Assembly: GCF_024296685.1 (NCBI RefSeq)
Contig: NZ_CP100763.1
Location: forward strand, 2,418,001 to 2,482,000
Source of the DNA: Natrinema marinum
GTDB lineage: Archaea; Halobacteriota; Halobacteria; Halobacteriales; Natrialbaceae
Reading direction: 5' to 3'
DNA: 64,000 nt
This document shows, one piece after another, positions 4,265-22,911 of this stretch; positions within the stretch are counted from its first letter, which is position 1; each line of letters begins with the position of its first letter. A model generated the notes under the pieces. The model worked only from the letters and a program-made list of their open reading frames with translations, was not told where the DNA came from and did not search any database. The translations under genes were made by a program, and so were the position numbers.

Positions 4265-4315
4265 CGAATCCGACTCGAGGAATCCGCTATACAGCAGCGT
4301 GATGGAGCCGGATGC

Positions 4316-4550
4316 GATGGCGCGCGCCGTCGGCCGGCCGAGCGACGCGAGATGCGAACCCAGTGAGCACCTCGGAACGCGAACGGTGACCGAAGGGAAC
4401 CGTGAGCGAGAGAGAGAGAGAGGACGGCCGATAACTCCGTGCGAGGGATGAGTGAGCGGAGCGAGGCCGAACGGAGTGTGGCCTCGCGAGCGAGCGAATC
4501 GGCTGGGGAGGACGTGGAAATCCCCCTGTTCGTGGAGTAGAAGGATACCA
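4316..4550 (+). repeat. Dispersed structured noncoding element, copy A
   Basis: Together with flanks this fills the 354-base gap between the kinase gene and the next coding region. It shares long identical blocks with 22480-22756 in the same orientation, including TCGGAACGCGA, TGCGAGGGATGAG and ATCGGCTGGGGAGGACGTGG followed by AAATCCCC. Between the conserved left and right blocks is a variable part that here forms an 8-bp stem (4461-4468 with 4480-4487). Near 4408-4421 there is a short GA-dinucleotide run. The right-hand block can fold GGGGA with TCCCC. Opposite-strand reading frames across it are low-complexity and unconvincing. It could be a structured RNA, a processing signal or a small non-autonomous element; sequence alone does not decide. 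Confidence 0.75.
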
Positions 4551-22479: not shown

Positions 22480-22756
22480 CGATCAGCCCCAGCGGTGGCG
22501 CGCGCTGTCGGTCGACCGAGCATCGCGAGGCCGAACACAGTGTGCCTCGGAACGCGAGCGGTGACCGCGGGAAACCGTGAGCCAAGTGAGGCCGGCCGAC
22601 GATACTGTGCGAGGGATGAGCGAGCGAGCAAAGCGAGCGAACGTTAGCGCGGGACCGTCGGTCCCGCGAACCATACGAACGGGGCGAAGCCCCGTGAGTA
22701 GAAATCGGCTGGGGAGGACGTGGAAATCCCCCCGTTGCCACGGGAGCAGGACACAG
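22480..22756 (+). repeat. Dispersed structured noncoding element, copy B
   Basis: Second copy of the element at 4316-4550, same orientation. The left block (GGCGCGCGC, CCTCGGAACGCGA, ACCGTGAGC, TGTGCGAGGGATGAG) and the right block (AATCGGCTGGGGAGGACGTGG then AAATCCCC) are conserved. The variable centre here holds two perfect hairpins: a 9-bp stem with GTC loop (22648-22668) and a 7-bp stem with GAA loop (22679-22695). It lies in a 585-base gap between the membrane-protein gene (stop 22405) and the convergent pdxS (stop 22991). The rest of the gap has no gene I can support. Confidence 0.75.
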
Positions 22757-22911
22757 TTTCTCACACTCCCCATCAGCCCACACCGTTCAAGACACGACCA
22801 CGGTTGCCGACGAAACCCGGCTCTTGGGACCCACTCGAGTACAACGAGACCCGCTCCGATCGAGCGCCGAGCACCACGTCACGTCGGCTGTGGGTTCGAT
22901 CCCTTCACTCG

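Follow-up and report, generated by a model that had tools for sequence, protein, structure and literature searches.

The window, a 64,000-nucleotide stretch of the Natrinema marinum genome, contains two copies, A and B, of a non-coding element (Table 1). The first-pass annotation had placed both correctly, on the same strand, as well as their perfect hairpins, one of 8 bp in copy A (4461-4468/4480-4487) and two in copy B, of 9 bp (22648-22656/22660-22668) and 7 bp (22679-22685/22689-22695). With copy A as the query, a whole-genome search retrieves copy B at an E-value of 1.6e-24, plus dozens of further partial matches, so that the likeness of the two copies is not due to chance. The right-hand block of similarity first described is present, but the right end of the family lies ca 25 nt beyond it (..GTTGCCACGATAGCAGGACG); this end is found in copy B and is degenerate in copy A. 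It had also been proposed that conserved ends enclose a freely changing core. The middle does differ between the copies. However, it is not free, because it holds a shared core (the 3' strand of P1, GCGAGGGATGAG and P3), and the differences are due to arms and modules that vary at fixed positions around this core.

Table 1. Features of copies A and B in the window
Feature	Position in window	Strand	Basis or genome position
Copy A (3' tail degenerate)	4314..4546	+	genome 2422314-2422546
Copy A, P1 5' strand (CGCGCG)	4321..4326	+	model R1 structure
Copy A, P1 3' strand (CGTGCG)	4438..4443	+	model R1 structure
Copy A, 8-bp hairpin inserted in P3 (GCGAGGCC/GGCCTCGC)	4461..4487	+	sequence and fold
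Copy A, nearly invariant segment CGGCTGGGGAGG	4500..4511	+	copy alignment
Copy B	22492..22757	+	genome 2440492-2440757
Copy B, P1 5' strand (CGCGCG)	22499..22504	+	model R1 structure
Copy B, P1 3' strand (TGTGCG)	22606..22611	+	model R1 structure
Copy B, module M1 (hairpins of 9 and 7 bp) within the P3 3' arm, GAACG/AATCGG on either side	22644..22702	+	
Copy B, nearly invariant segment CGGCTGGGGAGG	22706..22717	+	copy alignment
Copy B, P4 hairpin CGTGG..CCACG with possible GGGG:CCCC pseudoknot	22719..22742	+	covariation alignments

Two copies in the window had been taken to imply many in the genome, and this is the case. The core GGCTGGGGAGGACGTG, searched with up to three mismatches, occurs 120 times in the 3,766,003 bases of the genome, as compared with 56 times for the reversed control. 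Model R1, a covariance model built from 15 simple copies, gives 47 matches below an E-value of 1e-4 in this 3.77-Mb genome, corresponding to about 41 loci once split matches are joined. The family extends through the class. Model R1 matches 197 of 292 sampled Halobacteria genomes at E 0.01 or better, representing 58 of 77 genera, in a survey limited to ten scored candidates per genome, in which a few of the weakest matches may be chance. The hosts include Natrinema, Halosimplex, Halorussus, Natronococcus, Halobium, Halococcus and Haladaptatus. Deeper scoring finds 26-86 copies in six genomes of other families. Exactly one copy is present in all seven g30 genomes tested and in three of the four g29 genomes. 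The model finds no match in some of the sampled genomes, including two congeners; the element is thus not essential to the class. On plasmids it was found at 13 places, all on five haloarchaeal megaplasmids, and on viral contigs and phages not at all. In two congeners, G192 and G090, all matches (43/43 and 41/41) lie on the largest contig, about one-eighth of each genome being elsewhere. A search of Rfam 15 at gathering and relaxed thresholds gave no match, nor did the open-access literature searched yield any description of the family.

Family members measure about 144-320 nt. In ca 30 copies aligned on the core, GCGGTGGCGCGCGCTG is followed by a variable arm, then by GTGCGAGGGATGAG and a second arm, and finally by GAATCGGCTGGGGAGG and a hairpin ending with GTTGCCACGATAGCAGGACG. 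The shared core is composed of a stem P1, two arms P2 and P3, the segment CGGYTGGGGAGG and a hairpin P4. In P3 and other arms, steps of two base pairs alternate with tandem G.A mismatches. Most of the segment CGGYTGGGGAGG is unpaired in the structure model, yet it is nearly invariant. This model, consisting of P1 to P4 and of a possible GGGG:CCCC pseudoknot, was drawn from a sequence-only alignment of 15 copies that lack large inserts. In this alignment, 92.5% of the cells are paired and 18 of 36 pairs show two-sided changes; slid controls give 23-49% of paired cells and 3-7 such pairs. No two-sided change is seen in P4 or in the pseudoknot among the 15 copies, and the pseudoknot is therefore not proven. 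With 112 copies from several genera, 94.3% of the cells are paired and two-sided changes affect 25 of 32 pairs, in an alignment fitted to the model; alignments fitted in this way (A2 and A4) lean towards its structure. Covariation is thus strong both in the alignment made independently of the structure and in the larger set, as anticipated by the initial suggestion of a selected structure. A lack of further copies or of covariation would have refuted the guess, and both are present. G.U or U.G occupies 268 cells of the 112-copy alignment, as compared with 36 for A.C or C.A. This strand-specific constraint indicates that the + strand is the one that folds. The folding energy of single sequences is only mildly low (z-scores of -1.9 and -1.8).

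Some copies carry additional modules within this core. A 61-nt block, M1, sets apart two orthologous copies (G192:290350 and G106:C6:32575) that are otherwise 97% identical; it is located between GAGCG and AATCGG in one of them and is also present in copy B. M1 forms two hairpins, which covary in their own right (98.6% of the cells paired). A second block of ca 53 nt, M2, is found in other copies between GAGG and GGATGAG. M1 was also considered as an independent mobile unit. This was rejected because the genome has four exact matches to M1, each of them within an element.

The 109 copies of three congeners are all intergenic and none overlaps a called gene. Pairs less than 600 nt apart are tail-to-tail in 16 of 16 cases in these congeners, which represent fewer independent cases because several pairs are orthologous; a few head-to-head pairs were observed in other genera. 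No TATA-like box was found in the 70 nt upstream of the 109 copies, and thus no sign of an own promoter. Among single copies, inspection by eye revealed a clear TATA-like box only at the sole copy of genome G257 (L126, just upstream of 1501), where TATAAAAG lies ca 12-19 nt upstream. No terminal inverted repeat, of the kind expected for a MITE, was seen in the aligned copies.

Comparison of congeners shows turnover. Where copy A lies, the neighbouring genes are ca 366 bp apart in the genome studied here, as against 14-126 bp in ten congeners, which have no element there. At the site of copy B, the gap is ca 600 bp as compared with 119-174 bp in five congeners, again without the element. At both sites, the flanks are too diverged for junctions or a target duplication to be read. 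These empty sites, in at least ten congeners for copy A and at least five for copy B, together with the ca 41 occupied loci, agree with the earlier idea of a non-autonomous many-copy element. In G192, the place orthologous to that of copy A (G192:C1:352192-353417; L449, L259) contains a TnpB gene, and a further copy of the element lies close by. Closer congeners share many sites, with 44 orthologous occupied pairs. Between G192 and G090, identity is 0.90 in the element and 0.82 in the 50-nt flanks (Wilcoxon p 2e-4). At one site where G090 has a tail-to-tail pair, G192 and G106 lack the + copy, and G192 retains only a tail-like inverted repeat of ca 20 nt. Many copies are more similar to a non-orthologous copy than to their own orthologue. 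This gives a hint, and only a hint because the sequences are short, of exchange between copies.

Single copies were compared in two orthologous sets. In g29, four copies (L127, L128, L131 and L136) lie 3' of the same gene, whose product ends with VAAKVLNG. In g30, five copies are at one place and two at another. Together, the two sets contain nine pairs with compensated changes and four unpaired cells, in an alignment fitted to the model. It follows that the fold is under selection even in copies with no visible sign of spreading.

A first explanation to be weighed is that of purely selfish DNA resembling the bacterial REP/BIME and REPIN repeats, whose + strand would adopt its fold as single-stranded DNA, at the replication fork, and would be recognized and copied by a trans-acting enzyme, with no RNA function. 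Like these repeats, which are associated with RAYT transposases, the element is palindromic, dispersed over the chromosome in many intergenic copies, frequently absent from orthologous sites and arranged in inverted doublets. REPINs also display compensatory changes, along with inverted doublets (PMC3116915). The strand-specific tolerance of G.U, or G.T, fits folded single-stranded DNA too and does not by itself exclude it. However, no Y1 transposase of the REP type (PF01797) was found in the genome studied here or in other genomes with 41-86 copies (it is absent from G000, G106, G293, G146 and G072), and no cognate RAYT gene was found near the repeat. Moreover, REPs and REPINs are palindromes of 20-60 nt, whereas the element is a far more elaborate multi-arm fold of 144-320 nt with a core conserved throughout the class, and in two genera compensating changes are kept by single, vertically inherited copies. 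We consider this explanation rather doubtful. ERIC and BOX, two other bacterial families of intergenic repeats, ca 100-200 bp long and either interrupted by insertions at fixed positions or assembled from modular boxes, also resemble the element. The archaeal family differs in spanning a whole class; the likeness is one of description and no sequence relation is claimed.

The element could also derive from IS200/IS605 as a non-autonomous PATE, or be a stand-alone omegaRNA of a TnpB or IscB nuclease. It is indeed structured, non-coding and multi-copy, and may form a pseudoknot close to its 3' end. PATEs, common in Haloquadratum, are likewise palindromic non-coding repeats invaded by other small elements (PMC3119063). 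However, Rfam gives no match although it includes haloarchaeal omegaRNA families (RF02656 and RF02657; PMC12558985). The Y1 transposase is absent from the genome studied here, although it may have been present in the past. The R1 core was found neither at 30 TnpB loci of six genomes nor at 10 Y1 loci, with the exception of a single neighbouring copy that is unrelated to them, and half of the TnpB matches of G192 are on another contig whereas its elements are all on the main one. In contrast to PATEs, no link with TnpA or TnpB was found, and in the two genomes checked the element occurs on the main chromosome only. The omegaRNA (sotRNA) and HEARO RNAs are of similar size, but the TnpB searches showed no nuclease gene in cis to the element, and the core was not found at the 3' end of tnpB at the loci examined. 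Stand-alone copies are known for HEARO RNA. The IS605 transposase link was rejected on the basis of the Y1 and TnpB searches, and we consider the PATE or omegaRNA identity very unlikely. A cis-acting 3' element of the upstream gene, such as a terminator or a 3' UTR structure, would account for the many sense copies located 20-110 nt past a stop codon and for the T-rich first 15 nt downstream. However, orientation is neutral: 60 copies have the upstream gene in sense and 49 have it in antisense (21 versus 26 in tandem contexts), and the neighbouring genes have no protein family in common. On the basis of orientation this role was rejected, and we give it hardly any credence.

We find it somewhat probable that the family is a selected structured RNA which, in many lineages, has increased in number as a non-autonomous REP-like chromosomal element. 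Base pairs kept by compensating mutations, the lack of an Rfam match and the many copies point to what is probably a new working RNA, spread through genomes. The folded molecule would be RNA, single-stranded DNA appearing less likely. In the proposed scheme, the + strand would fold into the short closing stem P1, the variable arm P2, P3, CGGYTGGGGAGG and the terminal hairpin P4, with selection acting on this fold also in genera that have a single vertically inherited copy. The putative RNA would most likely be made by read-through transcription, which we propose because no promoter is seen, and would most likely bind a host protein or RNA through its constant segment and its G.A arms. The element would have been multiplied to dozens of intergenic chromosomal copies with help from a copying machinery in trans, its outer arms being swapped between copies.

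A further possibility, which we put forward only tentatively, is that a functional RNA, ancestral in haloarchaea and to this day single-copy and selected in some genera, became in others a SINE-like dispersed element with interchangeable peripheral arms. We found no description of a SINE-like element of this kind in archaea. The family adds a well-supported, class-wide, RNA-like member, absent from Rfam 15, to much-studied archaea. It combines a structured RNA retained by vertical descent with a dispersed repeat, which are usually encountered separately. Beside haloarchaeal genes there are probably dozens of such loci that are not annotated.

Downstream of the core, the 3' tail is lineage-specific. 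A GCCACGATAGCAG-like tail is present in 99 of 111 Natrialbaceae cores and in none of the 27 cores of other families. A CTGAAAGGG-type tail follows 9 of these 27 cores, as compared with 0.5% of control windows. The copies of family f6 (L122 and L142) have GTGCGAGCAGGACGCTTC on their 3' side, which resembles the Natrialbaceae tail, the rest being different. In copies from other families (L129, L133, L134, L140 and L143-L145), the extension 3' of the core carries GCGGTGCTGT-like repeats and GGACTGAAAGGGGC. The extension with these repeats is possibly an alternative 3' domain.
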